Source: Microcaldota archaeon (GTDB taxonomy: Archaea; Micrarchaeota; Micrarchaeia; Micrarchaeales; CABMGC01). Taken from it: a DNA stretch of 34,785 bases. A program made the translations under genes and the position numbers. Location: the NCBI GenBank assembly GCA_021850625.1, contig JAJZLJ010000027.1:87389-122173 (forward strand). The letters are read 5' to 3'. The notes under the pieces are model-generated. The model was not told where the DNA came from, did not search any database, and saw only the letters and a program-made list of their open reading frames with translations. This document shows positions 7,919-24,429 of this stretch, one piece after another (within the stretch, counting starts at the first letter, position 1; each line of letters starts with the position of its first letter).

Positions 7919-10288
7919 TTAAGATAAAATAAGATCTGGATTTTCTATATCAGCAAGTCGCACATAATTAGAGTAGATAACCAGGCGTATATCGTTCATA
8001 TCTTTAGTATACGTATTATTTAGCTTGTCCTTAAATGAAAGCCTAGTTTCCCTATCCAAAAATACTATTATATTATTATTACTTTTAATGTTAATTTTTC
8101 TAACTCCGGAGATGCTGGAGAAGATATATAAGTTTATATTTTTATCTCGCAATGTTGCAACCATATCTGCTTCAGGAGCAAGATCTAAATCAGTGAATGG
8201 AATAGCGTGGGAAACAAACAAATCTCGTAATTTCCTAAAGATTACAAGATATTCTATGTCATGGCTGGAACTCTTTGACCACTCATAAGGCATATAATAC
8301 TCGCTAGTTGTTGATAATTTACCCTCTATATTTAACTGATTAAGTATCTTTTTGGTATTTTGCAAGGTTATAGAAATTGGCATATTATTTTCACGTATGC
8401 TAGAGCTTATACTTAATTTTATCTCTTCTGGAGTTAGTGGCATGTACTTCCATTTATATTTGAAATTAACAGAATCAAAAAGGCTTATTATTTTATCTGA
8501 TTTTACAGTTACTCGTTCTTTCTTTATAGGAGGCATCTCAGGTATATCTATATAATAATCTTCGGAGTTAGGAGGTCTTAAAACAATATTCATAATCAGT
8601 ATTAGAAATGCAGCAATGCCAAATTCTATGTATATGGATGGTATTCCTGGAGGAGACTGATAATACTCTGGTATTACATAATTTATATTTATTAATGAGA
8701 GATTTAGATATTGATAACCGTAATTAAGAGTGGTACCTTTAGGAAGGGTATAATTTATTGTTCCATTTTTTAGCATTCCTTGCGTTTGATACTGCCCATT
8801 TATATTTATAGAGTATGGTATGTCTGAAAGTTCTTGATTATTGCTTGAGATGTTAAATATAAAAGTTCCATTTTTGAAGTTTGAATAAAGAGTGGTAACA
8901 TTTAGATATGGGACATAGAAAAGAACACTCCCATGGGAGACGTTGTTTATATCAACAAGATAACCAATATAATACTGTCCTGTTGGAACATCAAAGCTTC
9001 CGTATTTTACTATAGAGTAGGTAGTGTTGAAAAAATTGAGAGGAAAGCTATAGACAGATTTAAAGGTTTTATTGTAAGATATAACGCTAAAGGCTTTGTT
9101 TGTAGAAAGCTGGTTTATTGAAACCCCTATAGGAACCTGATCCCCATACCCTAGCACTGGTGGAAGACTAAGATCAGCAGAGTTGTTATAAATAATATGA
9201 AGAGGATACTCTAAATTTTGATACTTATAACCATTGCTGCTGTTTATTAAAAGTAGTTTAAATGAGGAGTTTATATTTAGTGCAGCTCCAGAGTTAAATG
9301 GAATATCTTTTTTAAGAGTAAAGATAAGAGTTCTCCCAGATAAGGAATTTGGAGATGGAGCTTGTGATATGTTTGTAGAACCATATGCAAGCTGCTTTAG
9401 CCAGAATCGTTGATATATTGCAGTAGAGATATCAGAAGCTAAATTTCCACTTGTTTGCCAACCTACTTTCGGATAGTTACTAAATGCGACTACAGTGCCA
9501 TTTCTAGTATTATTTCCAAAATTAATGTAAGAGATTGAACCTATTGATGTTCCATTTGATAACATAAAGGTTGGAAGATTAAATAGATATCCAGGGGTGT
9601 TTATTTTTTTTGAAAAAGAGTTTGTTTGAAACCCCTCTTTGTTCAATGCAGAGCTTGTGTAGTTGTTTGCTATTAATATCTGTCCATTTTCTATTAATCT
9701 TGTTGAATTTTGACCGACGTAGATTATTGTATCGCTTTCATTTAATAATTGTATCATGTTTTTTATTTCAGCTCCGCTTGAAAAGCCAGTATATGGAAGT
9801 ATCTCTGCTGGAAGAAGTCCTGTTGGAAGTATTACTATTGAATCTGGAGAGATAGTGCTTGTATTAAAGATATTAACTACTTGAAAACTTGATGAATTAA
9901 ATATAAGTCCATAATTTGATAAATCTGTAGAGAGATTTGCCTCTAGAGCGCCAGTATTAAAACAATCATAACATGAATTAAGAGGGTTTACAAGGTATAT
10001 TTTCATGATTGGATTTTTCTGATATACAAGCAATAGCATCTTTGCATCAGTGGCGTTTTTTATTGTGTAGTTTAAATAAGCATAAGCTGAGAGTTCTCCA
10101 GAATAATTGTAGTCTGCTATTCCTGACTTAAATAAAGAAATATTCGTAGAGATTGTTCCATTTTCAACATAAACTGGCTTTAGTGTGCTGATTAGATTAT
10201 CAACATATAGAATTATAACTGACAGAAAGATAATTATAAGCACGGCTATAATCAAGCCAATAATTAGTATCTTCCTTTTGGAAACCAT
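7919..10288 (-). CDS. Large bitopic membrane protein: N-terminal TM, ~530-aa N-glycosylation-site-rich ectodomain, second TM, ~220-aa cytoplasmic tail
   Basis: Hydrophobic KILIIGLIIAVLIIIFLSVIILYV near N-terminus, second hydrophobic segment IYIEFGIAAFLILIMNIVL, more than 20 N-x-S/T sequons between them. Confidence 0.75.
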   Translation of the reverse strand: MVSKRKILIIGLIIAVLIIIFLSVIILYVDNLISTLKPVYVENGTISTNISLFKSGIADYNYSGELSAYAYLNYTIKNATDAKMLLLVYQKNPIMKIYLVNPLNSCYDCFNTGALEANLSTDLSNYGLIFNSSSFQVVNIFNTSTISPDSIVILPTGLLPAEILPYTGFSSGAEIKNMIQLLNESDTIIYVGQNSTRLIENGQILIANNYTSSALNKEGFQTNSFSKKINTPGYLFNLPTFMLSNGTSIGSISYINFGNNTRNGTVVAFSNYPKVGWQTSGNLASDISTAIYQRFWLKQLAYGSTNISQAPSPNSLSGRTLIFTLKKDIPFNSGAALNINSSFKLLLINSSNGYKYQNLEYPLHIIYNNSADLSLPPVLGYGDQVPIGVSINQLSTNKAFSVISYNKTFKSVYSFPLNFFNTTYSIVKYGSFDVPTGQYYIGYLVDINNVSHGSVLFYVPYLNVTTLYSNFKNGTFIFNISSNNQELSDIPYSININGQYQTQGMLKNGTINYTLPKGTTLNYGYQYLNLSLININYVIPEYYQSPPGIPSIYIEFGIAAFLILIMNIVLRPPNSEDYYIDIPEMPPIKKERVTVKSDKIISLFDSVNFKYKWKYMPLTPEEIKLSISSSIRENNMPISITLQNTKKILNQLNIEGKLSTTSEYYMPYEWSKSSSHDIEYLVIFRKLRDLFVSHAIPFTDLDLAPEADMVATLRDKNINLYIFSSISGVRKINIKSNNNIIVFLDRETRLSFKDKLNNTYTKDMNDIRLVIYSNYVRLADIENPDLILS

Positions 10289-10297
10289 TCATATCAG

Positions 10298-10444
10298 CTA
10301 TAACTGTTGTTTTTTCAATACATATTTGTCAATAATGGATTGAAGAAGTCTTGACGCAGCATTTGTGTTGCCCTTGGAACTTTTCATGATGCGGTAGGAT
10401 TTAATGTTCCTGAATTTCTTATTTATATAGACGTGATACTCCAT
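10298..10444 (-). CDS. Small basic protein (48 aa); absent from the supplied ORF track
   Basis: MEYHVYINKKFRNIKSYRIMKSSKGNTNAASRLLQSIIDKYVLKKQQL; fills the gap between flanking co-directional genes with almost no spacing. Confidence 0.5.
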   Translation of the reverse strand: MEYHVYINKKFRNIKSYRIMKSSKGNTNAASRLLQSIIDKYVLKKQQL

Positions 10445-10445
10445 A

Positions 10446-11171
10446 CTATTCCCTCATTTCTAGATAGCCCTTGGAAACCATCTTGTCTAATATGTCTTCG
10501 ACTCTAGGAGGAGTAAGGTTATATGTCTTGGCAAACTCTTCTATATCAATGCTGCTTCCATGCACCATTATCCAATCTTCAACCATTGACATGAGCGATT
10601 CGTCTGAGTATTTTTGAAGCCGAGTGAGGATTTCGTTTAATTTTTTATTTTCTTCACTTAATTCTGAAGATTGGAGCGCAAGATTCCTATTTGATGCTGA
10701 AAGTTCTATATTAAGACGTTTTATAGCGCGATATTCACTTAACAAGGAGTCATACTTATTAAATAAAGTGCTATAATTTAAAGAGATTCCCGAAAGTAAT
10801 TTATCCAGTGTTGAATCAACATATTGTAAAAAAGTATTTTTATCGATTTCATAAAGATCTGATATGCTAGAAAGGAATGAGGATAAATTCCTTAAAACGA
10901 ATGCGCGGCGCATTGTTTCGCTGATATCATTTGGTATAGAGTATATTATCTCAATTGTGTTTGGATGAAATATAAAAAGGTAAAACAAGTATGGCTGTTT
11001 TTTGATGTTTCTACTTTCAACCATTGCTATAGTAGCAGAATCATTAGATGAAGAACTGGCATAAAATGGTACTTTAGATGCTATATCTTTTATTCCGTCG
11101 AAAGTTCCTATAAGTTTTCCGGAAATCTCTATTTTCTCTACTTTTGGTGTTATAATACCTTCTTCTACCAA
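10446..11171 (-). CDS. Cytoplasmic coiled-coil protein with C-terminal winged helix
   Basis: Coiled coil LSASNRNLALQSSELSEENKKLNEILTRLQKY followed by SSIDIEEFAKTYNLTPPRVEDILDKMVSKGYLEMRE (wHTH pattern). Confidence 0.65.
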   Translation of the reverse strand: MVEEGIITPKVEKIEISGKLIGTFDGIKDIASKVPFYASSSSNDSATIAMVESRNIKKQPYLFYLFIFHPNTIEIIYSIPNDISETMRRAFVLRNLSSFLSSISDLYEIDKNTFLQYVDSTLDKLLSGISLNYSTLFNKYDSLLSEYRAIKRLNIELSASNRNLALQSSELSEENKKLNEILTRLQKYSDESLMSMVEDWIMVHGSSIDIEEFAKTYNLTPPRVEDILDKMVSKGYLEMRE

Positions 11172-11204
11172 AATACCACTATTATATCTAAACCTTGAAT
11201 GTAT

Positions 11205-11639
11205 TTATTGCTTATGTTTTTGCTTTTGCAACCTTGTAGCGGCATTTTCTAGAATGGTGGTGTGTGAAGTTTCATTTGTAATAATTAAATCTGGAGTATA
11301 ATTAAGAAGGGATATGAGGTAAAGAAAGATTAATACAGAAACTGAAAGGATTATAGTCTGAATCGTTGGTGAGATAAAGATTGAAAATATTACAAATACA
11401 ATTCCAAGTGTAATATAAAGTCTTTGACGTGATACGTATCTTTTTCTATTTTTTATATATAGGGGATAACATTCCTTTGAGACCACAAGACGATTATTTT
11501 TTTCTGTTTTAAAGATTGTTTTTTTAAGATACCGTATAGTTTTTATAACATTATCTATCTTTATTTCTATTCCATCGGCTTGTTTGCCACATATTATACA
11601 ATAACTTTTTTGGTTTTTCGTTGCCATATTACTCAACAT
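11205..11639 (-). CDS. Small membrane protein with N-terminal CxxC and two TM segments; start likely M5 (about 11627)
   Basis: YCIICGKQADGIEIK motif; hydrophobic LYITLGIVFVIFSIFISPTIQTIILSVSVLIFLYLISLL. Confidence 0.6.
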   Translation of the reverse strand: MLSNMATKNQKSYCIICGKQADGIEIKIDNVIKTIRYLKKTIFKTEKNNRLVVSKECYPLYIKNRKRYVSRQRLYITLGIVFVIFSIFISPTIQTIILSVSVLIFLYLISLLNYTPDLIITNETSHTTILENAATRLQKQKHKQ

Positions 11640-11925
11640 TTAACTCAGCCACTTTTCCAAAAGTAGCTTCTATTCTTTCCTCGTCTAACGTATTAAAGAT
11701 CTCAACTATTCTAGTATCATCGACGCCTATTCTTCTAAGTATATTTTCAATGTCTGAAGATTTTATTCCTAACTTTTCTAACATTCCTACAAAAGCTATG
11801 GCATCTACATGCCTATGTGATTTTTCTATTATACTTAGCATTGCTTCTATACTTCCAGGACTTACATTTAGCGATGAAAGCATCTTTTTGATATCTATTT
11901 TATTTACTATAAAGGTTTTTTTCAA
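11629..11925 (-). CDS. Small all-helical protein sharing a module with the C-terminus of the adjacent VirB4-like ATPase (TTG start if full length)
   Basis: RHVDAIAFVGMLEKLGIKSSDIENILRRIGVDDTRIVEIFNTL aligns with ATPase C-terminus RHVDIREFAKTALSTGINRQYLIGFLRSIGLNDTIISRIMSYL. Confidence 0.6.
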   Translation of the reverse strand: MKKTFIVNKIDIKKMLSSLNVSPGSIEAMLSIIEKSHRHVDAIAFVGMLEKLGIKSSDIENILRRIGVDDTRIVEIFNTLDEERIEATFGKVAELNVE

Positions 11926-11929
11926 ATAA

Positions 11930-13456
11930 TCACGAAAGATAAGACATTATTCTAGAGATTATTGTATCGTTAAGGCCAATTGAACGTAGAAAACCTATAA
12001 GGTACTGTCGGTTTATTCCAGTTGAAAGTGCGGTTTTAGCAAACTCTCTTATGTCAACATGCCTGCCCTTCTCATTTAATGAATTTAATATTATAGATAT
12101 AGCGTCTGAGCTGTATCCAGACTCTATTAAAATTGAGGTAAGCGACATCTTGTCAAAAGAGTAATCTTTTTTGACGCTAGTATCTGAAAGTTCTTTTTCT
12201 GTCAATATATCAGAGGTAAATATAGAGTAAGTATCTAAAGGTAGCTCCCCTACTATTTTGTTTACAAGAAACACATTAGGAAATCTTACCCCAGTATTGA
12301 AAGCCATATCTATTGCTGCTTCTCCTACGCCGAGTTTACTTATCTCGCTTCTTATAAAATCTGAAAAGTTTAATGAACCCTGAAGATAATTCATGAATTT
12401 CTCGAATCTTATTCTAAGCATAAAGGTTGTTCCTACATTAGAGAAGATGGCTTCATTTACATCGGTAGGATTTTGTGAAGCGACTATGAGACCAAAGCTA
12501 TACTTTCTTCCCTCTCTTATTATAGTTACGGCATCGCTTCGCTCATCGCTTGCTACCTTCCAAGCCTCATCTAGCACTACCAAGGTCTTTAGCCCAGCGC
12601 TTGAGCTCCAGCTTTCAAGTCTCATTTTTTCCTTTAATGTCTGAAGTATGAACAGCGCTGCCATAGCCCTAAAACGCTCATCTGGAAGGCTTGAAAGATC
12701 CAAATCTACAAGACCAGAACTTGTAAGTTTTCCTATATCTATAGTGCTCTTATTGGCAAAGTAATCCTCTCCTTCTCTTGAAAACTGTCTTAATCTATAA
12801 ATAGTATTTTCAAGCTCTGCAGGATAGGCATATGTTCCTTCCTGTAGCTTTTCTTCGAGTAATTTAGTTACATCCTTTAATGTAGGCGGTTCTTTTCCCG
12901 GTGGTGGAGGCGATGCAAGCGGAAAGCCCATGTTTAGATATGCCTGCTCTATTGCTTCCGAGGTAAGACGACGCTGCTCGGGATACTGTGCTATATCTGT
13001 TAAGATATCAAGCGAGTTCATTATCTGTTTTGCTCTGTCTATTGGCTTTATTCCTGAAAGATCCATTATGTTAAGATAATCGCCTTTTGAAAGAGCTACG
13101 ATCTTGCCTCCACTTTGTTTTACCCAGGAGATATACTCCCCAGCCCAGTCAATTATTATGGCATTTGTATTCCATATGTAACTGGCTCTAGCTAAAAAGG
13201 TTTTTACAAAGAAGCTTTTTCCTGCCCCAGTTATACCAACAACTGAGATATGTGGGTTAGTTATATTTGAAAATGTCCACGTGAATGGAACCTTGAAGAT
13301 TTTTGTAGTGCCTACAAAGATTGAATTAGTAGGATCATTAAAAAGTATCTCTGGCGGCGGTTCTGGAGGCCTACTTAAGAATATTCTTTTTGAAAGTTCG
13401 TTGCTCATTAATGTTTGAATGCGTATAAGAGTCATATGATCAATATTAAAATACAA
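11930..13456 (-). CDS. VirB4/HerA-type (DUF87-like) secretion or DNA-transfer ATPase; start may be internal M8
   Basis: Walker A VVGITGAGKSFFVKTFL; IIIDWAGEY; Walker B LKTLVVLDEAWKVA; IIREGRKYSFGLIVASQNPTDV; preceded by FVGTTKIFKVPFTWTFSNITNPH as in VirB4-class ATPases. Confidence 0.88.
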   Translation of the reverse strand: MYFNIDHMTLIRIQTLMSNELSKRIFLSRPPEPPPEILFNDPTNSIFVGTTKIFKVPFTWTFSNITNPHISVVGITGAGKSFFVKTFLARASYIWNTNAIIIDWAGEYISWVKQSGGKIVALSKGDYLNIMDLSGIKPIDRAKQIMNSLDILTDIAQYPEQRRLTSEAIEQAYLNMGFPLASPPPPGKEPPTLKDVTKLLEEKLQEGTYAYPAELENTIYRLRQFSREGEDYFANKSTIDIGKLTSSGLVDLDLSSLPDERFRAMAALFILQTLKEKMRLESWSSSAGLKTLVVLDEAWKVASDERSDAVTIIREGRKYSFGLIVASQNPTDVNEAIFSNVGTTFMLRIRFEKFMNYLQGSLNFSDFIRSEISKLGVGEAAIDMAFNTGVRFPNVFLVNKIVGELPLDTYSIFTSDILTEKELSDTSVKKDYSFDKMSLTSILIESGYSSDAISIILNSLNEKGRHVDIREFAKTALSTGINRQYLIGFLRSIGLNDTIISRIMSYLS

Positions 13457-13488
13457 ATCAAACTATTTAAATTGATTGTATATTTTCT

Positions 13489-14313
13489 TTAATGCTGTAA
13501 ATTGAAAAGCTTGTCAATTGAATTAGGATCTAAAAGGACATAATTAAGTCTATGTAGTGTATGAATCTCTCTTCCAGTAATTCGTATTATATTCAAATCG
13601 AAGGTGTGGAATACTGTTTCTAAACGATTAAGTTGGGTTGTTAATGCATCTGAAGCATCTTTTTCGCTTATCCCTACCCCAGTGGTTTCTATATACATTA
13701 TAGTATTGAGTGGAAGTTCTCCTGAGGACATACGATCTATCTTTGCTTGTAATACATTTACCTTTCGCTGAAGCTCAGTTAAGGTCATTTGATTTGGATT
13801 GCTCGAGTTGGATTCTCTTGAAATCTGAAACTCTAAAAATCCTCTGTCTCCTTCTAGGTCCTCTCGATATTTTTGTACATCCTTGGGATTTGTTATTACA
13901 TTAAATTTAAATGGAAAATCTATATTCATAACTATACGTTCCCATTTTTCAGGAGCTAATATTATCTCGCTGTCATCAGAGTTTTCTATGCCTTCTGCTC
14001 TGAAAATATAATTGTAAAGGTTTGCAGTCAAATACCCCGTAGCGTAGTATATTCCATTTGTATACTTAATTATACGATTTTGCTCCTTGGGGCAATAATG
14101 GTCTTTTGATAACTGTATCTTTATCCCAAGTAAACCAGTAACTACTGGAAAGATCATAAAGTCAACATAATTAATCATTAAAATCAAGGCTACCGCAATT
14201 ACAGCGAAGATTCCTAGAATTATGCCCATAATACCAGTACTCGCAGCGGTTATAAGAATAACAAATGGCGGTATGCAGGAGATTCCAAGATACATTATAG
14301 TTTCTTCATCCAT
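13489..14313 (-). CDS. Membrane-anchored protein: 2 TM plus soluble domain resembling VirB3 + VirB4 N-terminal region
   Basis: N-terminal hydrophobic hairpin; then GIYYATGYLTANLYNYIF ... LTTQLNRLETVFHTFDLNIIRITGREIHTLHRLNYVLLDP, similar in layout to the next gene. Confidence 0.6.
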   Translation of the reverse strand: MDEETIMYLGISCIPPFVILITAASTGIMGIILGIFAVIAVALILMINYVDFMIFPVVTGLLGIKIQLSKDHYCPKEQNRIIKYTNGIYYATGYLTANLYNYIFRAEGIENSDDSEIILAPEKWERIVMNIDFPFKFNVITNPKDVQKYREDLEGDRGFLEFQISRESNSSNPNQMTLTELQRKVNVLQAKIDRMSSGELPLNTIMYIETTGVGISEKDASDALTTQLNRLETVFHTFDLNIIRITGREIHTLHRLNYVLLDPNSIDKLFNLQH

Positions 14314-14322
14314 TAAGATCGC

Positions 14323-15255
14323 CTATATTCCTTCTTTTATGCTTTTTTGTCTGATTATCTCATTGACTGTTTCTACAGGTATCATGTAATTTGGCTCAAG
14401 TAGAGATAACAGTTCATCTCCTTCTGGAATATATGCTGGAACACCAAGCGTTGCACTTATTCCTGTTGCTAACTCCTCGGCTCGTTGATGCACTATACTT
14501 ATTGCTTCTTCTTCATTATCTCCGAAAGCACTTACTGTATAATAGGTCACTAATGCTTGAGAACGAGAGCTGCTTATATTTGAGATAATATTTTGCCACA
14601 TTGTCAGCTCTCCTTTTAATCTATTTATAGTTACAGTATTTTGTTTTTCATTTGACTCTGCTTCTCTTAAGAGTTGGGAGGTATCGTCAAGTTTAGACCT
14701 CAGTTTTGTTATATATTCATCTTTATTCACTACAAGCATTTCAGAGGATATCTTTGTAGTATTTTTTGAGATTGTTATGGCTCTGCTAAAGGTTCTGCCG
14801 AAATCTAATTTCTCAGGATCTGTCATCTCAGTAGATGAACGATAAAGAGGGACTTTTATAAAGGTTGTTGCGTATGTTACTCCCTCGTCTCTTACTACTA
14901 TGGAATTTCCGCTTGGAGATAAGATAAACATTTCCTTTTCATTGAGTACAATAGTCTTGTTTTTCATTTTTGCTGCAGGTATGTATAAGTAGGTATAATA
15001 CTTTGCAGAAAAAGCAACCACAGAAAGTATGAGAGATAATACTCCAAATATGAATATGATTATAGGATTTGTAGTTGATAGGGAAATAACTGCAAATACG
15101 ACACTTATGCCTACAAGTATAATAAAGATAAGCATCTGTGTCTTCAAAGCCAAGTTAGCACCAATAAAGTATATGGTATATTTAATTATATACTTTACCC
15201 TGATAAAGCATATGTTAGAGTATTTTAAATCTAGAGGAGGTTTGTGTAGCTCCAC
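14323..15255 (-). CDS. Membrane-anchored protein paralogous in layout to 13489-14313; likely start M41 (about 15135)
   Basis: Two TM (MLIFIILVGISVVFAVISL, PIIIFIFGVLSLILSVVAFSA); GVTYATTFIKVPLY ... VHQRAEELATGISATLGVPAYIPEGDELLSLLEPNYMIP. The annotated N-terminal extension overlaps the upstream gene. Confidence 0.6.
   Translation of the reverse strand: MELHKPPLDLKYSNICFIRVKYIIKYTIYFIGANLALKTQMLIFIILVGISVVFAVISLSTTNPIIIFIFGVLSLILSVVAFSAKYYTYLYIPAAKMKNKTIVLNEKEMFILSPSGNSIVVRDEGVTYATTFIKVPLYRSSTEMTDPEKLDFGRTFSRAITISKNTTKISSEMLVVNKDEYITKLRSKLDDTSQLLREAESNEKQNTVTINRLKGELTMWQNIISNISSSRSQALVTYYTVSAFGDNEEEAISIVHQRAEELATGISATLGVPAYIPEGDELLSLLEPNYMIPVETVNEIIRQKSIKEGI
15165..15197. promoter_or_regulatory. 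Inverted repeat TAAAGTATAT-N13-ATATACTTTA containing TATA-like sequence
   Basis: 10-bp perfect arms at 15165-15174 and 15188-15197, in the gap between the membrane-protein block and the ATPase block. Confidence 0.4.
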
Positions 15256-16402
15256 CTATTAATTGTGCAAGCTGTGTTACAAGAGCATATGTCATTGCAA
15301 AGATTAATGCAGGATAAAAAAGAACCGATAACCAGAAGGTTCCCATTCCTTGCTCTGCAAGATTTGCCTCTATAACCAAAGGTCCTGTTTGTGATGCGGC
15401 ATTAAGCTGAGCCTCCCCTCCAGCAGAGTTCTGTCCGAAATATGCCGCTTCTGAATTAAGTTGATTTAGAAGGTTTGTGTTTGTAAAGTAAAACGCCACT
15501 GAAAAAAAAGTAGGCATTATTACATAGAAGCCTATTGCTAATGCTATCATAAGTCCACCTAATGCACGCGTAGGTAAAAGTGCCCGTAGTATTATGCCAG
15601 GTATGAGAAAGACTGGTATTGCGGCATACATAAAGATTAGGATAATATAAAACTCTCCGTATAATACAGTCAGCCCATCAAGAAAATATGTAATAAGAGT
15701 GACTGCTGGTAGATAAAACAAATAGTTTATTGCAAAGGAAAATACACCGATTATATTTGAACTGCATACTAATGATGCACAGATTTCTAGGCCAGTAGAG
15801 GTGTAAGATTTATCTGCTACGGCTATCTGAAAAAGCTGCGATGTTAGACTTTGTGTAGTAGAGATAGTATTGCTTATGTAAGATAAAGAGGTAGTATAAG
15901 GATTCGCATTTACTATTAGCGATGGAATTAGACCGAGAATTGTTGCGGCTAGGGAAAGAAAACCTATGACTATAAGTCCAGTAGCTATTGCTTCATAAAA
16001 TTCTCCAATTGCAAAGTTCTTTAGCTTTTCATCAGCAAAAAGAACACTTGCTATATATATTATTAATGCAAGATCAAATGATATAAAAAGTGCAACCATG
16101 GCTACTGGCGCCCATGTATCCCAATTTGAGATCATAGCCTGATTTATCTGTGAGCAGTACCAAGGTGCATTCTGGTCTACAATCTGATTTTGAGAACAAT
16201 AAGTAGTGCTTGAAGAGATTGGTATTGTTGTGGTAGAAGATGAACTAATCGATGTAGAGGTAGCTGGAAAAGCTGAGGTTAACGCTGTTGTTTGTAGTTG
16301 AACGCTAGTTGTTGAAGAAAATGCATATGAGATAAGATAACCAAACTGCATTGGTATAAGAATAAAGGCAAAAAACAGTATCAATATTTTTTTTGTTTTC
16401 AT
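15215..16402 (-). CDS. Polytopic membrane protein, paralog family (copy 6 of 6), VirB6/TrbL-like in style
   Basis: Signal-like N-terminus, Ser/Thr-rich segment, multiple TM, motif GIILRALLPTRALGGLMIALAIGFYVIMPTFFSV, C-terminal LAQLIGGATQ. Confidence 0.7.
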   Translation of the reverse strand: MKTKKILILFFAFILIPMQFGYLISYAFSSTTSVQLQTTALTSAFPATSTSISSSSTTTIPISSSTTYCSQNQIVDQNAPWYCSQINQAMISNWDTWAPVAMVALFISFDLALIIYIASVLFADEKLKNFAIGEFYEAIATGLIVIGFLSLAATILGLIPSLIVNANPYTTSLSYISNTISTTQSLTSQLFQIAVADKSYTSTGLEICASLVCSSNIIGVFSFAINYLFYLPAVTLITYFLDGLTVLYGEFYIILIFMYAAIPVFLIPGIILRALLPTRALGGLMIALAIGFYVIMPTFFSVAFYFTNTNLLNQLNSEAAYFGQNSAGGEAQLNAASQTGPLVIEANLAEQGMGTFWLSVLFYPALIFAMTYALVTQLAQLIGGATQTSSRFKIL

Positions 16403-16406
16403 AACA

Positions 16407-17510
16407 TCACAGCAGATTTATAAACAACGATTCGAAATCAAAGGTTTCTCCCATAGCATGTGAGAAATCAGATATAAAGGTTGTTACAATAGTAAAGGTA
16501 AGTACAGGAATAATAGTTAAGCCTACTACAATGAGCCCTATGTACGCAAAAAGATACTCAGGTAATATGTTTGCTGCGTATCCTAATAATGAACCGCTTC
16601 CTGAAAAAAAGCCTGTTACTACACTTATTGCAGTTATTGCTGGATTTACAACAGGCAAGATTGCCTGGGTTGCCGTAACTCCAGAACCAAATCCTAAGGT
16701 AAGAGCGTTTTGTATTGCCGTATCCATAAAACCATAATTAATACTTACTATTATAGGAAAGATAAAACCTAAACCTATTCCAAATGCCATCATTCCATTC
16801 CCAAAGGTTCTTGTTATCTCGAATGAACGTGCTATTAAGCCTATAGCCATAAAAAGGGCAAAAAGCAATGGAGCAGCAGCGAGCAATAATAGTTGTACTT
16901 GGCTTAGAACAGCAAAATCAAATATTAAAGGAAGTGCAAATCCATCAAATTTGTTGGTTTTTCCGAATGGATCCAAAGCAGCTGCACCGCTCTTTGCAGA
17001 GACAGATGCGCCAAAAGTTGAACTTGTAGAGGAATAACCTAATGTAAGATATGCACCAACATCAGGAGTTATAGAAAACATTAACAATGCAAAATAAAGA
17101 TACTGATTGAACTGCAAAGTATAGGTATTAAACTGTTGAAGATCGCAAAGTGATATCGCATATATATTATTTACAGATGAACCAGAACACGCAGTAGGTA
17201 TTAGTCCCGAACTAGAAAAAATAGGTTCAGGATTGCTTGAGCAGATAAGAGTTGATACTGTTCCAAATGACATTATTAGAACTAATGTTATAAGCAAATC
17301 AAATATTTTACTCTTTGTCCATGATCTTACATTATTCCAATTTATTATCGGAGCTAGTGCATATATCAAAATAAGTATAGACATGCTTGCGAGTACTGCT
17401 AGGAGTATTACTGGAAACCATCCAGTATATGGAGAGGTAAGAAAGTAACTTACACTACTAACACAAGAGTTTGCAACTGCAAGTATAATTTGTGAAAGTA
17501 GTGTAATCAT
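16407..17510 (-). CDS. Polytopic membrane protein, paralog family (copy 5 of 6)
   Basis: Motif GLIARSFEITRTFGNGMMAFGIGLGFIFPIIVSI; multiple TM. Confidence 0.7.
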   Translation of the reverse strand: MITLLSQIILAVANSCVSSVSYFLTSPYTGWFPVILLAVLASMSILILIYALAPIINWNNVRSWTKSKIFDLLITLVLIMSFGTVSTLICSSNPEPIFSSSGLIPTACSGSSVNNIYAISLCDLQQFNTYTLQFNQYLYFALLMFSITPDVGAYLTLGYSSTSSTFGASVSAKSGAAALDPFGKTNKFDGFALPLIFDFAVLSQVQLLLLAAAPLLFALFMAIGLIARSFEITRTFGNGMMAFGIGLGFIFPIIVSINYGFMDTAIQNALTLGFGSGVTATQAILPVVNPAITAISVVTGFFSGSGSLLGYAANILPEYLFAYIGLIVVGLTIIPVLTFTIVTTFISDFSHAMGETFDFESLFINLL

Positions 17511-18739
17511 ACAATCTTACCAAACAATTTTTTGCCACTAAATGATGGCGAACCTAACAATTTCGAAAGCACCTCGACCATATCATAAGATATGATAAAG
17601 GAAATAAATAAACCAGTAAGCATCAATACATAAAAAGCTACCTCTTCGGAATATAGTGAGATATTACCATCTATGCCAAAACCATTTTTGAAAAGAAATC
17701 CCAGAAGAAATGAACCGGCACTTCCAGAAGAGAAGGAGTTTATTCCAAACTGCTGCACAAATGTAACTATATTTCCGCCAACACTGCTAGAGCTAATGCA
17801 TAAATTGTTAGTAGTTGATCCGGCTCCGCAAAGTGAGGAGATACTTGAGAGTATATTAGATGCTGTTGAAAAAGTAAACACAGATAGAATAGATGGAAAT
17901 ATTATGAAAAATGAGATGAATAGTGCTATTAATGAACCCCCTGCAGCCCTTGTCCATGGAAAAGAACGGAAAAGCACTCCGACGTAGAAGAGTATTGGAA
18001 ATAAGAAGTATATTACAAATAAAAGCAAAACTGTTGCTATGCTTACGCCTATAAATCCTGAGAGGACCGAAAATTCATTGTATATAAAACCCTGTATTAT
18101 TCCAAGTCCTGCAAAGGGGGTCAATCCGACGCTTGGAAGAAGGTTTCCGATTGAAGATAATCCCGCACCAGTAAATGAAAACTGTATAGATAATCCAGAT
18201 AAAAGCTGATATCCTACCAACTCAATGTATGTTCCAAACATTATTAATACTCCAGTGAATATTTGTACATTTACTATATTGTTGCAGATGTTTACATAAA
18301 GATTCTCTATATTTCCATTAGAGGTAGTTAATGCAGGAGTTGATGAACTGGTAGTTGTTGAAGAACTAGAAGGAACTGTGGAAGAGGATAAATTTGAAAA
18401 GAACGCAATTGCTCCAGTAGATGTGAATATGGCACTTGCTACAAACATTAATATTAAAATATTTACAAAGGATTCTATGTATTCTGTTTTTGCAAACTGC
18501 TTAAAGCTGTCAAGACCAATTGCAACACCTAGTCCATAAATAAAAGACATGAAGATTATGACAGCTATTATTATAAGGCTAGTAAAAGAAAGTAAATCGT
18601 TGTATGTTGAGAGATTGTAAACTGCCGGGCTTACTATGTTATGAACATTTCCAAAAAAATCGCTGCAATATGTTTGCGCTGCTGAGGATGATCCAAGGAT
18701 CATCAACGCAAAAAGAAAAATCAATAACGATTTTCGCAT
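17507..18739 (-). CDS. Polytopic membrane protein, paralog family (copy 4 of 6)
   Basis: Motif GVLFRSFPWTRAAGGSLIALFISFFIIFPSILSV; C-terminal VLSKLLGSPSFSGKKLF; Ser/Thr-rich outer segment. Confidence 0.7.
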   Translation of the reverse strand: MRKSLLIFLFALMILGSSSAAQTYCSDFFGNVHNIVSPAVYNLSTYNDLLSFTSLIIIAVIIFMSFIYGLGVAIGLDSFKQFAKTEYIESFVNILILMFVASAIFTSTGAIAFFSNLSSSTVPSSSSTTTSSSTPALTTSNGNIENLYVNICNNIVNVQIFTGVLIMFGTYIELVGYQLLSGLSIQFSFTGAGLSSIGNLLPSVGLTPFAGLGIIQGFIYNEFSVLSGFIGVSIATVLLLFVIYFLFPILFYVGVLFRSFPWTRAAGGSLIALFISFFIIFPSILSVFTFSTASNILSSISSLCGAGSTTNNLCISSSSVGGNIVTFVQQFGINSFSSGSAGSFLLGFLFKNGFGIDGNISLYSEEVAFYVLMLTGLFISFIISYDMVEVLSKLLGSPSFSGKKLFGKIV

Positions 18740-18749
18740 AATATAACAC

Positions 18750-20252
18750 TCATAATAATTTATTTAATCCTAGTATACTAGTTGTGCCGCCTAGAAGGCC
18801 AGATATTCCAATTGTTGCAGTTATTCCTATGAAAATATTTATTAATGGAAAGATTATTCCTAAAACAGACATCATGCCGTATAAATTTATAAGGCTAAAT
18901 ATGGTATTAATTGAATTTTGTGGTGTACAATTAAAGTAAGGTATTGGAAGAACACTAGGAGAAGAACCGGTTAATGAACCAAAAGTGTTTATAATACCAA
19001 GTATAAGACCGTATCCAGGAAGACCATATGCACCTATAACAAGAAGTTCTTGTGATATAAGACCTCCATGTGGCCAACAGCCATCGTTATTTATAACATA
19101 TTCTGCATTTGGAAAAACAAAGAAGTTTATGCCTGTTTTATCATAAGTTACAATGTTTGAGTTTAGATCCTTGCCCGTTAAATATACTGAAGGATAGGAA
19201 GTTGCACCTATTGGTGAGATTGTATTTGAGTTTAAAGTAGAGTACTCCATTAAAAATATTAAAGGAAAAATAATTATTGCAGCAAGAACAAATGCTATTA
19301 GAAAACCTCCGGCTTTTCTTGTTATTGAGGATGCGCTTAATATTATTCCAGCTGCAAGTATATACGGCCAGCCAAATAATATTAATAATATAAAAAGAAG
19401 CTGTAACAAAAATGAGTAGAATACCACAGTAGATTGTGTTGAAAGTATATATGTTGCTCTTGAAATTATATCATAACCTGCAAAGGGTTTATAAGAATAA
19501 TCCACTGTTAGTGCGGTTAGAGTTCCAGTTTCTAAACATGTGACTTGTGGATAGCAAATTGTATCTGTTGCAGTAAAAGATGAAAGAAATGCCATATAAG
19601 TTCGATATACATAAATTGCATTGAGATTATTTGCAGCTTGATTTGTAAGATTTGAAAGTATTACATAAGTTGCGCCAAGTCCATAGTCTATATTTGCAGT
19701 TACATTAAGTGCGCCAGCATTTTGAATAAGCCCAGAACAAATGTTATACGTTGGAGAGTTTACAGTAGCTGCAGTATTTACGAATGCAAGAGAGTTATCC
19801 CCGGCCGGATTATTAAGCTGCTGGCAGATCGTAAGAATAGAACTTTTAGAGATTAAAGAGGTAGAGTATGTTGCCTGTCCTATCCAATTAAGTAAAAGAA
19901 TAACAAGAACCAGTATTACTGCTGTGAAAAGGACTTTTTCTAATTCTGCTTTTCCTCCAGAAACCATGCTTTTGTTATTTAAAATATAGCCCAGCACATA
20001 GTATAAAATAACAATTGAAAAACTTACAGTTATTGCCAAGATAATTACAGGATACCATCCGCTAAATTGAGATACAGGAGTTTCAAGAGGGTAGTTTTGA
20101 GATGTTAAAATAATTCCTGAAAATAGAGTTTTATTTAAAATATTGGCTTTACTATTAAGGAGTATATTTGTAGTTGTAGCTCCAGAAAGATTAAAAACAC
20201 CAAAGAGTAACAAAGAGAACAGAATAATAAATAATATTTTGTTTTTTAACAT
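18750..20252 (-). CDS. Polytopic membrane protein, paralog family (copy 3 of 6); start set to internal Met at 20252 to remove overlap
   Basis: Motif GIILSASSITRKAGGFLIAFVLAAIIIFPLIFLM; C-terminal ISGLLGGTTSILGLNKLL; hydrophobic N-terminus MLKNKILFIILFSLLLFGVF. Confidence 0.7.
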   Translation of the reverse strand: MLKNKILFIILFSLLLFGVFNLSGATTTNILLNSKANILNKTLFSGIILTSQNYPLETPVSQFSGWYPVIILAITVSFSIVILYYVLGYILNNKSMVSGGKAELEKVLFTAVILVLVILLLNWIGQATYSTSLISKSSILTICQQLNNPAGDNSLAFVNTAATVNSPTYNICSGLIQNAGALNVTANIDYGLGATYVILSNLTNQAANNLNAIYVYRTYMAFLSSFTATDTICYPQVTCLETGTLTALTVDYSYKPFAGYDIISRATYILSTQSTVVFYSFLLQLLFILLILFGWPYILAAGIILSASSITRKAGGFLIAFVLAAIIIFPLIFLMEYSTLNSNTISPIGATSYPSVYLTGKDLNSNIVTYDKTGINFFVFPNAEYVINNDGCWPHGGLISQELLVIGAYGLPGYGLILGIINTFGSLTGSSPSVLPIPYFNCTPQNSINTIFSLINLYGMMSVLGIIFPLINIFIGITATIGISGLLGGTTSILGLNKLL

Positions 20253-20256
20253 TATA

Positions 20257-21519
20257 TCACTCGGAATGCCCCAAAGCAGGTATTGTTCCAAGGGCTTTAG
20301 CCAATCCCTCTGCAAAACCTATTGTTATCATTATATCTATCGCAATTAAAAGAACACCTTCAAAAAAGTATTCTGATATCTGAACGCCAAAACTTGCTAT
20401 ATGATTAGGCAAGGTAATTATATTTTCGAGTAGAGATGTTACAACTGCCCCTATTCCCCCACCACTGCCAACTAAGGTAGCGTAAAAGTTTACAGGAAGA
20501 TTTATTGAGGTGCCTCCATAATTTAAGAAATTTACTGTATTTTGCTTGAACAAATAGCCAATAGGAACTTGTTGTATTTGATATGTTCCCACATATTGAG
20601 AATAGGGATTACATACTGATTGTGGATTTGTACAGAAAACCCAGTTTATTATGTAAACGTTCATGCTTATAGTAAGGGGAAATACTATGTAAAAAGCTAT
20701 TGCAATAGCGAACAAAGTATTTGATATCTCGCGTATCTTAGGGCCTAAAAATAAAAATGAACGCATTATTAATGCTATAGGTATTATAAGTGTAAATGAA
20801 ACTATGCTTATTATTGGAAACAGAAAATAAAGAACAAAGAGTAATCCAAATGTAATAACTATAAGCATGCCATATGAAAGATAGGTGTCTGCGTAGCCAT
20901 CAAATAAAGAAACTGTATCTCCAGAATTTTCAAGATAGACTCCAAATCCAAGATTTGTACTTCCTGTTGAACTGCTACCTATCTGCGCTGCACCGGAATT
21001 ACCAGAACCAGATGAACTAGAGGAAGAGCCACCATTATATAAAGCGTCTGTTGCACCTAATGCTTTGTTAAGTGAACTGACAACTTGATTTAAAAGAGTT
21101 GTTACTATATTTCCATCTATTGAAAGTGCTATTCCTTGAAAGGTAAGATCGGTAACTAATGAGGTTCCTTTTACAAAAAGAAGATTTCCTATATAGTATT
21201 CGTCAGCTTGAAATATATTTTGATAATTACTTCCATCGCCGGATAAACCTGCACCAACAGAACAAGAGGCATACACTAAAGAGATTAAAGATAAAAATAT
21301 TAACAGGCTTATTATCCCTTCTCCAAATTCATATATTACTGTATTTCGTATCTTTTTGCCTCTGCCTGAAGGAAGAAGTGTGCTTAAATTATATATAAGT
21401 AAACCTACAGAAAACATTGCGAGTAGTACCAACGCATTTATAAAAATCCAGTTATTAGCATTAATATTTCCAAGATTACATGCAGTTGTTGTTATTGTTG
21501 TGAAGATAAATGAGGTCAT
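20257..21519 (-). CDS. Polytopic membrane protein, paralog family (copy 2 of 6)
   Basis: Motif ALIMRSFLFLGPKIREISNTLFAIAIAFYIVFPLTISM; C-terminal GLAKALGTIPAL; Ser/Gly-rich loop. Confidence 0.68.
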   Translation of the reverse strand: MTSFIFTTITTTACNLGNINANNWIFINALVLLAMFSVGLLIYNLSTLLPSGRGKKIRNTVIYEFGEGIISLLIFLSLISLVYASCSVGAGLSGDGSNYQNIFQADEYYIGNLLFVKGTSLVTDLTFQGIALSIDGNIVTTLLNQVVSSLNKALGATDALYNGGSSSSSSGSGNSGAAQIGSSSTGSTNLGFGVYLENSGDTVSLFDGYADTYLSYGMLIVITFGLLFVLYFLFPIISIVSFTLIIPIALIMRSFLFLGPKIREISNTLFAIAIAFYIVFPLTISMNVYIINWVFCTNPQSVCNPYSQYVGTYQIQQVPIGYLFKQNTVNFLNYGGTSINLPVNFYATLVGSGGGIGAVVTSLLENIITLPNHIASFGVQISEYFFEGVLLIAIDIMITIGFAEGLAKALGTIPALGHSE

Positions 21520-21520
21520 T

Positions 21521-22780
21521 TTAGATCAACTTTAATTTCTTTGAAACCTTTAGATTTATGCTGCCGCCCAATAAACGCGCTATATTATCGGTTACGGTGA
21601 ATGCTATAACCAAATCAAATATAAAAAGTATGAAAACCTGAAATATTATATAAATTAAATTCTGAAGCATATAATTTAATGCCGGAAATATTGAGTATAA
21701 TGTAGATAATGCTATTAGAAATGGATTAATTATGTTGGAACTTGTAGATGTAGGTATAATTGAGTATGTTTCAAAGTAAACAAGATTTGAAAGTCCGTTA
21801 CAGACAGAGGAGATAAGACCTAGGGAGTCGCAAGTTCCAGTAGTAGGATAGCTGCCATGTACTGTTAGATAACTTGAAAAGAAATTTGACACTGGAGCGT
21901 TGAAAAGTACAATAACAGATGGCCATATCAAACTTATCCCTATGCCAAATGCTATCAACGTGCCGCCAATTCCTCTCAAAAATGGAAGCGCTCTGAAGAT
22001 TATTCCTACAGGAATAAGGATCCAAAGTCCTATTATCTCAAAAATAGGGAGTATATTTATCTGCACAGTGATTATATTTATTGCAGGAAAGAAAACATAA
22101 TTAAAGGCATCATTCATTAATGAGGTTTCAAATTGTTTTCCTGTGACAAAATCCGTTTGAAGTATATTGTTTGTCAAAAGAGAAAAACTTACGCCAGATT
22201 TAACAACTGGAAGAAAGATGAAGGGCCCTGGAAGAGGAACAGGTGGTATCGGAAGTCCGCCCCAGCTTATTGAAATCCCTTTTAGAAGGCCATCTGCAAG
22301 TGCAAGGCTGTTGAGATTTTCAATACTTTGAACTAACACATTATTGGTATTGCATAGATATACCTCTCCATTATAAAGAAGATTTCCAATATTAGTTGAG
22401 AAGTTGCTTATTGATGATCCTGTCAAGGATACTGCTATGCCACTTATAAACGATATAGCGGCATATATTATTACTATTATTAGTATTGACTTGACTAATT
22501 CTTTATATTCATTGCCTAAAAAAGAGCCCACTTTTGTTTGCGGGAAGACTTTGCTTATTATGTATACAATTCCAATAAATGCAAAGGATACAAACAATGC
22601 CAATGCAGAAAGAGCAACTGCCGTATTCAATGCAACACTTGAGAATAAAGCCACCTCGCTATAAATATTATTATTGTTTGTAAGGAATGTAGAGCTACAT
22701 AGAAGAGGAGAGGCGTATGTAACGCCTATTACCATAAGAAGCATTAGCATTGATATGCGTAGCTTTCTAAAACCCTGCAT
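21521..22780 (-). CDS. Polytopic membrane protein, paralog family (copy 1 of 6)
   Basis: Motif GIIFRALPFLRGIGGTLIAFGIGISLIWPSVIVL; C-terminal IARLLGGSINLKVSKKLKLI. Confidence 0.7.
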   Translation of the reverse strand: MQGFRKLRISMLMLLMVIGVTYASPLLCSSTFLTNNNNIYSEVALFSSVALNTAVALSALALFVSFAFIGIVYIISKVFPQTKVGSFLGNEYKELVKSILIIVIIYAAISFISGIAVSLTGSSISNFSTNIGNLLYNGEVYLCNTNNVLVQSIENLNSLALADGLLKGISISWGGLPIPPVPLPGPFIFLPVVKSGVSFSLLTNNILQTDFVTGKQFETSLMNDAFNYVFFPAINIITVQINILPIFEIIGLWILIPVGIIFRALPFLRGIGGTLIAFGIGISLIWPSVIVLFNAPVSNFFSSYLTVHGSYPTTGTCDSLGLISSVCNGLSNLVYFETYSIIPTSTSSNIINPFLIALSTLYSIFPALNYMLQNLIYIIFQVFILFIFDLVIAFTVTDNIARLLGGSINLKVSKKLKLI

Positions 22781-22880
22781 ACATAATTATTCTTATAATA
22801 GTATTATAAAGGTAACGTAAAAGATTAGAGTCGGATAGTCGAGTATATTTTTAGTTTATGCGTTAAAAAAGTGATTTGAG

Positions 22881-24167
22881 TTAATCTTCCTCATCCGAGT
22901 CGGTTGTTTGTTTTTGTTCTGTTTCCTCGTTTTGTTCTTTTTGTTTTTCCTCTTTTTTATTCATGACTTTTTCTCCCGTATCGTCTTTTGTGTCTTCTTC
23001 TTCTTCATCTTCATTTGTTTCAGGAGTTTTTTTACCAGCTCCCCTACCAAAATTAAATTTTATTATATCTAATCGTTCATCCTCTTTGTCACCACCCCAT
23101 ATCTTCAACTTATAACCATATTTTCCAGTATTGGGTTTATGACCATTAATGATATTATCTGCAAGCTGGGTTGCTTGTATATCGCTTGGGGTGTCAAAGA
23201 GTTTATCGTAAGTATTTTTAAAGTTAGAAAAGGTACTTTCGTCTAGTTTTTTCTGCTCTGCTGCTCTGAGATTAGGATCATTTATTTTTTTGATTTCTGT
23301 GCTGCGCGTTTGATATTGTGCTATCTGTTTGTTTAATTTGTTCTGCGAATCTCTAAGCTCCTTCTTTCTTTTTAAAAGTAATGAGCTTGCCATTGCCATT
23401 TCCTGGAGTTTCATTTTCTTTTGCATCGCTCCCAAATTTTTATCTGTCTTTATTTTTTGCATGAGTTTAGAGATGGCTCTTCTTTGTTCTGAAACTGTCC
23501 TAAGAGAATCGCCTAAAATAGTATCTTTAATAGTAGAGTTATATTTTGAGTTATAGTTCTCAAGTTCTTCTTCTTTAGATTTGTAAAAAAGCTCTTTTGC
23601 CTTTTTAGGAGCCTTGCCAGTTACGACCATATTAATAAAACCTGTAGATGCAAGTATAGAACCTCTCACAAGAGGAGAAAATATGTATGTTGCTCTACCT
23701 ACATTCTTCATTAAACTATCAGAATCTGATTGATTTTTTTCTTTGCTTCCGGAATTTTTTTTACCGCCAGTTTTACTGCCAGGAATAATTGCTGCTCCAC
23801 TTATACCTAATTGCGCTGCGCCTGCGCCTCTATTAAAAAGCGTATTAAAGTCTTTATTCAAAGCTTCATTCTTTTTATTCTCATTGACTCCAACATTCCT
23901 TTTTGTTTTCTTTAATGGTTTTTGTGTATAACCAAGGAAATCTTTTTTGAAGGTTTTATTTGCTAGAGTGCCTTTGCCCTGTCCGCCGCCTAATCCAGCT
24001 ATAGTTCCTATACCAAAAACATTAAACAGACTCCAGCCACGTGCTATTCCAGCTGCAGCCCCTATGAAAAAAAGTATTATCAAAACAGGAATAAGTGCAT
24101 TTATTGCACCTACTGAAAGTATTATTGAATAAAGAATAGAAAATATTAAAACAAGAGCATATTGCAT
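22881..24167 (-). CDS. N-terminal 2-3 TM protein with long charged, partly coiled-coil cytoplasmic tail and acidic C-terminus
   Basis: N-terminal MQYALVLIFSILYSIILSVGAINALIPVLIILFFIGAAAGIARG...; Lys-rich middle; C-terminal NEDEEEEDTKDDTGEK...TDSDEED. Confidence 0.65.
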   Translation of the reverse strand: MQYALVLIFSILYSIILSVGAINALIPVLIILFFIGAAAGIARGWSLFNVFGIGTIAGLGGGQGKGTLANKTFKKDFLGYTQKPLKKTKRNVGVNENKKNEALNKDFNTLFNRGAGAAQLGISGAAIIPGSKTGGKKNSGSKEKNQSDSDSLMKNVGRATYIFSPLVRGSILASTGFINMVVTGKAPKKAKELFYKSKEEELENYNSKYNSTIKDTILGDSLRTVSEQRRAISKLMQKIKTDKNLGAMQKKMKLQEMAMASSLLLKRKKELRDSQNKLNKQIAQYQTRSTEIKKINDPNLRAAEQKKLDESTFSNFKNTYDKLFDTPSDIQATQLADNIINGHKPNTGKYGYKLKIWGGDKEDERLDIIKFNFGRGAGKKTPETNEDEEEEDTKDDTGEKVMNKKEEKQKEQNEETEQKQTTDSDEED

Positions 24168-24358: not shown

Positions 24359-24429
24359 GGCCTTGACCGGGGGTCGGACCCGGACCTAGGGATCCACAGT
24401 CCCTTATGCTACCGCTACACCATCAAGGC
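24359..24429 (-). tRNA. tRNA-His (GTG anticodon)
   Basis: Reverse complement GCCTTGATGGTGTAGCGGTAGCATAAGGGACTGTGGATCCCTAGGTCCGGGTCCGACCCCCGGTCAAGGCC folds as a cloverleaf: acceptor GCCTTGA/TCAAGGC, anticodon arm AGGGA-CTGTGGA-TCCCT, T arm CCGGG-TCCGACC-CCCGG; C73 discriminator typical of His. Confidence 0.93.

Follow-up and report, generated by a model that had tools for sequence, protein, structure and literature searches.

What kind of machine is built by a long run of membrane-protein genes around a single ATPase in a Micrarchaeota chromosome, and what could it carry? The locus lies in a stretch of 34,785 nucleotides (hereafter, the window) from the assembly GCA_021850625.1 of a Microcaldota archaeon (contig JAJZLJ010000027.1, positions 87,389 to 122,173 of the forward strand), where 14 tightly packed minus-strand open reading frames (ORFs) extend from position 24167 down to 7919. 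A preliminary description, made from the DNA alone, had proposed a machine related to type IV secretion systems (T4SS) and to the archaeal Ced DNA importers. This proposal is supported by the VirB4-class ATPase, the deep synteny, a VirB2-type pilin and a pair of proteins resembling the N-terminal domain of VirB4 (VirB4-N). We consider it very likely that the operon encodes a T4SS-class machine, and probable that this machine is T4SS/Ced-like with a role in macromolecule transfer; DNA as the main cargo is suggested with reserve, at slightly less than an even chance. The source genome comprises 807,689 bases in 32 contigs and is approximately 83% complete, and the genome-wide negative results given below hold within that completeness.

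Motor ATPase

The motor (11930–13456, on the minus strand like all operon genes described below) belongs to the VirB4/CedB/CedD/HerA class. It matches the Pfam families DUF87 (expectation value, E, 9e-15), AAA_10 (3e-11) and TraG P-loop (6e-8), and its profile aligns with a plasmid VirB4 profile across 318 columns (E 1.7e-20, hhalign), in agreement with the VirB4/HerA type first attributed to it. The nearest NCBIfam models are CedD (3.1e-21), VirB4 CD1110 (1.4e-16) and CedB (1.9e-16), with HerA also among them. The protein carries no VirB4 N-terminal domain of its own. Genome searches for the VirD4 coupling protein (PF02534) and for relaxase PF03432, the only relaxase family searched, were empty, consistent with the absence of both proteins in the preliminary description. 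Among the operon proteins, no Pfam match to a PilB/FlaI secretion ATPase or a TadC/FlaJ platform was found. Elsewhere, a 559-aa DUF87 protein (L186:6547-8223) cross-matches T4SS coupling proteins at the P-loop only, and adjoins a gene of the AP-endonuclease family, not NurA.

Separate VirB4-N-like proteins

The genes g7 (14323–15255) and g6 (13489–14313) each encode a protein with two transmembrane (TM) segments and a VirB4-N-like soluble domain, and the two proteins are mutual paralogs (profile comparison, E 1.8e-9). A combined profile of g6, g7 and their homolog from a compact sister locus, described below, scored 36.2 and 33.6 against two VirB4 N-domain profiles, compared with maxima of 19.5 and 21.3 in 60 column shuffles. 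The same combined profile matched a 319-aa protein of a Geobacillus plasmid (E 4e-5; 17.2 bits against a maximum of 3.2 in 500 sequence shuffles). Judging from these profile comparisons, g6 and g7 very probably carry the N-terminal part of VirB4 as separate polypeptides. Such a split parallels the sharing of the VirB4 N-domain by CedB and CedD, each of which is reported to hold different pieces of it (PMC11868833). In a Foldseek search with the g6 model, R388 T4SS chains of VirB4 size represented 8 of the top 11 matches, with weak and non-significant E values.

On the Geobacillus plasmid (L202:2324-5485), this 319-aa VirB4-N-like protein is encoded by its own gene between PrgI and a VirB4 ATPase, an arrangement that may be a bacterial counterpart of the split VirB4. 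PDB sequence searches with the profiles of g6, g7 and the polytopic protein m1 found nothing, Pfam scans of their family members gave scattered weak matches only, and no VirB3/PrgI profile match was obtained. A similarity of g6 to the CedB N-terminus (E 0.013 for the window protein) was seen in only 2 of 21 family members and was not relied on.

Six polytopic paralogs

Upstream of g7, six consecutive genes encode polytopic proteins: m6 (21521–22780, ~7 TM), m5 (20257–21519, ~6 TM), m4 (18750–20315, ~7 TM, 521 aa), m3 (17507–18739, ~6 TM), m2 (16407–17510, ~7 TM) and m1 (15215–16402, ~7 TM), the last being the most conserved of the set. All 15 pairs of their profiles align (E 3e-8 to 2e-21), so the six are mutual paralogs, and the motif sharing remarked on earlier reflects true homology. 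In the tree, m1, m3, m4, m5 and m6 each form one clade within families f1 and f2 (SH-aLRT 100), and m2 forms one clade that also takes in the class-level family (SH-aLRT 98); the deeper placement of the f11 polytopic copies was not settled by the tree. The single-clade distribution across families indicates that the duplications are older than the split of these families. Outside the genus, identity drops to about 26–49%, with the one-to-one correspondence kept.

The pilin profile described in the next section aligns with the N-terminal hairpin of m5 and with that of the combined polytopic family (E ~5e-6). The scores were 47 for m5 (shuffled maximum 29) and 46 for the combined family (shuffled maximum 13), with decoy membrane profiles below 23. 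A pilin-like N-terminus of this kind is a published relation for CedA1/CedA and VirB2/VirB6 (PMC9905601). This hairpin is the single feature suggesting that m1–m6 may be VirB6/CedA homologs. The m1-type proteins have no NCBIfam match.

VirB2/TrbC-class pilin

In relatives of the window genome, small proteins with a signal peptide and two TM segments are encoded upstream of m6. One of them, from an operon of the sister family, scores above the TrbC/VirB2 Pfam cut-off (PF04956), and the pooled pilin profile finds TrwL of R388 (E 7.5e-9). The pilin is present in 58 of the 59 family genomes, often in 2–4 copies and commonly 13–15 kb upstream of the ATPase. In the window genome, it is encoded on another contig (G000:C29; E 1e-22 to the family profile), next to a 6-TM protein that is the same companion as in relatives. 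Many relatives also encode a ~630-aa protein with 11–13 TM segments between the pilin and m6 (L188:4307-6181, L189:8009-9961, L191:7377-9290).

Conservation and co-inheritance in the phylum

The ATPase profile query matches in 59 of 59 family genomes, in the large majority near full length and at 64–86% identity, with weak matches in a few fragmentary genomes. Named relatives, with ATPases 63–86% identical to that of the window, belong to Candidatus Micrarchaeota and include Ca. Micrarchaeum sp. A_DKE and a Mancarchaeum. The order m6-m5-m4-m3-m2-m1-g7-g6-ATPase-g4-g3-g2-g1-TopoVI-B (topoisomerase VI-B) is conserved in 19 of 20 loci of family relatives. This level of order and identity argues that the cluster is not due to chance. 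This block was also recovered from the sister family and, with six polytopic genes, from the class-level family (L155, L157, L159, L164). The sole rearranged operon of the 20 (L026) has g1 and g2 inverted between m1 and g7. The L027 stretch, as obtained, shows no g2, g1 or TopoVI-B, and the G023 assembly holds the main ATPase region twice (contigs C16 and C23), through duplication or strain mixture.

Across the phylum, the g6-type protein was detected in 247 of 295 genomes (88 of the 96 high-quality ones) and the m1-type protein in 178 of 196 (85 of the 93 high-quality ones). The parts of the machine are present or lost together: m1-type, ATPase and pilin matches are all missing from families f10, f15 and f22 and from most of f17, but the complete set occurs in three f17 genomes belonging to one genus. 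Family f13 presents weak ATPase-domain matches only.

Compact sister locus and origin of the expansion

Each of the 21 family genomes checked for a smaller version of the system has one. Its order, kept in all 22 loci obtained from these genomes, is pilin, VirB6-like, VirB4-N-like, ATPase, g2-like and a 182-aa protein. Its genes are homologous to those of the window: the VirB6-like protein to m1 (E 9.6e-22), the VirB4-N-like protein to g6 (1e-14), the ATPase to the motor (1.8e-43) and the g2-like protein to g2 (3.7e-13). Two compact loci are present in the window genome (L183:7979-12498 and L184:991-5498, on G000 contigs C2 and C27), 47–86% identical gene by gene. In the deep lineage f17-g78, single-copy VirB6-like and VirB4-N-like genes are adjacent to a main-type ATPase gene, with a pilin match ~2 kb upstream. 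Given the compact single-copy locus and these deep single copies beside a main-type ATPase, the window operon looks like an expansion, and an expansion of a minimal T4SS machine is the simplest reading. In plasmid and viral collections no close relative was found; viral contigs gave no match and plasmids only distant VirB4s.

Downstream of each compact copy in the window genome lies a gene for a ~735-aa protein that has a HerA-like P-loop, and a transposase-like fragment, judged by eye, adjoins the second locus (L184:2-907). The 182-aa protein was considered as a shortened g1; the similarity is within the shuffled range and this relation is unproven.

Accessory genes, layout and flanks

The remaining genes encode accessory proteins. 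The first gene, g14 (22881–24167), encodes 428 aa with an N-terminal membrane hairpin and a long charged tail. It varies among relatives: mostly just the first ~65 residues are conserved, and 7 of the 20 relatives have it, either ahead of m6 or between m1 and g7. Downstream of the motor, g4 (11629–11925, 98 aa, helical) repeats the ATPase C-terminal domain (profile comparison, E 3e-10), and g3 (11205–11639, 144 aa) combines a cytoplasmic CxxC zinc-ribbon-like part with two TM segments. Relatives of g3 have a conserved CxxC...CxxC zinc-ribbon-like pair, and the window copy is missing one cysteine of the second pair. The product of g2 (10446–11171) is a 241-aa coiled coil with a C-terminal winged-helix-like part, and that of g1 (7919–10288, 789 aa) includes a signal anchor, a ~500-aa ectodomain, a TM segment and a conserved cytoplasmic domain of ~215 aa.

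Intergenic gaps range from -59 to +33 nt, except for 100 nt after g14 and 157 nt before g1. Thus, the packing and single strand given in the preliminary description stand, with 14 ORFs in place of about 15, and its inventory of six polytopic, two 2-TM, one large bitopic and several small helical or winged-helix-like proteins is present in full. The operon lies, as described there, between housekeeping genes: TopoVI-B (Pfam) on one side, and on the other a tRNA-His (24359–24429) followed further out by ribosomal protein genes, judged from sequence. The chromosomal fixation suggested there is also borne out, as is synteny in relatives, which it had named as a check, with the TopoVI-B neighbor kept across the family. 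A scan for sigma-70-type promoters remained at chance level, as expected in an archaeon.

Comparison with known systems

The Ced system of Sulfolobales (CedA, CedA1, CedA2, CedB, CedD, CedE) and the Ted system of Thermoproteales share several features with this operon: they are chromosomal and archaeal, with a VirB4/HerA-class ATPase, polytopic proteins of 6–7 TM segments, a VirB2-like pilin and no relaxase. Like the m5 hairpin, the CedA N-terminus resembles a pilin (PMC9905601). However, according to published descriptions Ced has CedA and the CedA-like CedE, whereas here six polytopic paralogs are encoded, and the compact locus adds a seventh. The VirB4-N-like part is placed on two separate membrane proteins without ATPase domains, and the conserved genes g1–g4 are additional.

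Conjugative T4SS (VirB2-VirB3-VirB4-VirB6; R388 and the MPF-FATA/CD1110 plasmids) likewise combine a VirB2-class pilin, a VirB4-class motor, a VirB4-N-like domain and polytopic proteins in one block. In contrast to these, the present operon shows no recognizable VirB6 sequence match and no VirB8, VirD4 or relaxase; its VirB4 is split, its channel paralogs are expanded to six, and it is chromosomally fixed. The T4SS of Patescibacteria also comprise conserved T4SS-type genes in ultrasmall host-dependent cells, but with a full VirB4, PrgI/VirB3 and TrsD, and a six-fold VirB6 expansion is not described in the accessible part of that source (PMC12102498). The SPEARE proteins of Nanohaloarchaeota, giant VirB4-fused surface proteins, share DPANN membership, a VirB4-class ATPase and a proposed host-directed secretion (PMC10266531). 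They consist of an ATPase fused to a ~9,000-aa adhesin, with a second VirB4 carrying PF03135, unlike the separate motor and multi-gene membrane complex observed here.

No such system was found in searchable Micrarchaeota papers; supplements and subscription journals were outside reach, so priority is uncertain. Co-culture (2022) and comparative genomics (2025) papers on Micrarchaeota contain no VirB or secretion terms, and the Mancarchaeum paper reports type IV pili and, beyond these, speaks only of probable conjugative elements located in genomic islands (PMC5498576).

Interpretation and alternative explanations

The combination of a motor, its split anchor, a membrane platform made of several paralogs and a pilin argues for a T4SS-class transfer machine. 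In the proposed mechanism, the ATPase would form a ring that g6/g7 anchor to the membrane, beneath a platform in which each of the six different channel paralogs might fill one position. From this platform, the pilin would polymerize into a tube crossing the S-layer, with ATP hydrolysis powering pilin insertion and substrate passage. The g1 protein may act as an ectodomain-bearing contact or scaffold, and g2, g3 and g4 as cytoplasmic adaptors.

Several observations weigh against this assignment. All NCBIfam matches of the ATPase are far under the equivalog cut-offs (CedD 76 versus 600 bits, CedB 60 versus 700 bits), and the pilin is unlinked to the operon in the window's own genome. The Pfam VirB4 N-domain model PF03135 matches nothing in the genome, and the g6 or g7 profile alone is not clearly above shuffles, as only the combined profile is. 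The AlphaFold models of g6 and m1 are of moderate confidence (predicted local distance difference test scores of 68 and 74), and the m1 model gives no clear Foldseek match, its hits being noise with an R388 T4SS chain seventh at a probability of 0.35. Finally, the polytopic profiles have no similarity to R388 or Gram-positive VirB6 (hhalign). Of the expanded VirB6/TrbL-like channel in the preliminary description, the expansion is borne out by six homologous paralogs, and homology to bacterial VirB6 is unproven.

Regarding the cargo, the closest named ATPases are CedD and CedB, and a relaxase or coupling protein is not evident, as in Ced; these features favor DNA exchange or import. This role, in which kin or host would be the partner, appears most likely and is favored over effector delivery, substrate and direction being the weakest step of the argument. 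The same machine could instead deliver proteins, effectors or metabolites to an archaeal host, as proposed for SPEARE and the Patescibacteria T4SS, a possibility to which we give well under an even chance. Near-universal retention in tiny host-dependent genomes and the 789-aa ectodomain protein within the operon are consistent with it, as are the secretion role proposed in nanohaloarchaea (PMC10266531) and the T4SS genes of an epibiotic patescibacterium, reported as essential for growth (PMC12102498). However, no VirD4-type coupling protein was found in the genome search, no effector-like genes were seen accompanying the operon, and the best ATPase matches are DNA importers.

An attachment pilus, whose motor would do no more than build VirB2-like filaments that adhere to host or biofilm, without cargo, is unlikely. 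Pilin genes, present in nearly all family genomes and often in several copies, would fit such an organelle, as would the pili-like links reported between ARMAN cells and Thermoplasmatales (PMC5498576), but six channel-like paralogs and a duplicated VirB4-N part seem excessive for a mere filament, and a related Micrarchaeon already encodes type IV pili (PMC5498576). A recently acquired mobile conjugative element that has since decayed or been domesticated is very improbable: the compact copies occur twice in the window genome, one near the transposase-like fragment, but the constant TopoVI-B neighbor, the high conservation over the phylum, the empty relaxase search and the lack of viral or close plasmid relatives stand against it. 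A DNA-repair HerA complex beside unrelated membrane transporters, the outcome that the preliminary description had named as contrary to its proposal, is largely refuted: HerA structures are slightly ahead of VirB4 in the PDB sequence search with the ATPase (3e-13 versus 9e-9) and DUF87 is the top Pfam match, but NurA (PF09376) was found neither in the genome nor in the operon, the motor aligns with VirB4, VirB4-N-like partners adjoin it, and both synteny and co-inheritance tie the membrane proteins and the pilin to it. The lack of NurA, VirD4 and relaxase matches argues against both a repair HerA and a plasmid conjugation element.

The T4SS/Ced-like transfer machine can also be extended to a more specific model. 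Six non-equivalent VirB6/CedA-like subunits would form an obligate hetero-oligomeric pore, which a split VirB4 would feed and which would serve nearly all Micrarchaeota as a conduit for macromolecule exchange with archaeal hosts, with the compact locus as a parallel second machine. We regard this full model as doubtful and offer it as speculation.

It has long been asked how DPANN archaea make contact with their hosts and draw on them. The operon represents a symbiont-side machine conserved over most of the phylum, and its named genes are testable in existing co-cultures. Cryo-electron tomography of a Micrarchaeon revealed nanotubes between symbiont and host, ascribed to the host, as well as an unidentified docking barrel on the symbiont side (PMC11329633). 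The natural series of T4SS-like machines, running from single-channel to six-channel forms, is useful for understanding how such pores assemble. This machine could be how Micrarchaeota cells exchange DNA or other molecules with their neighbors.

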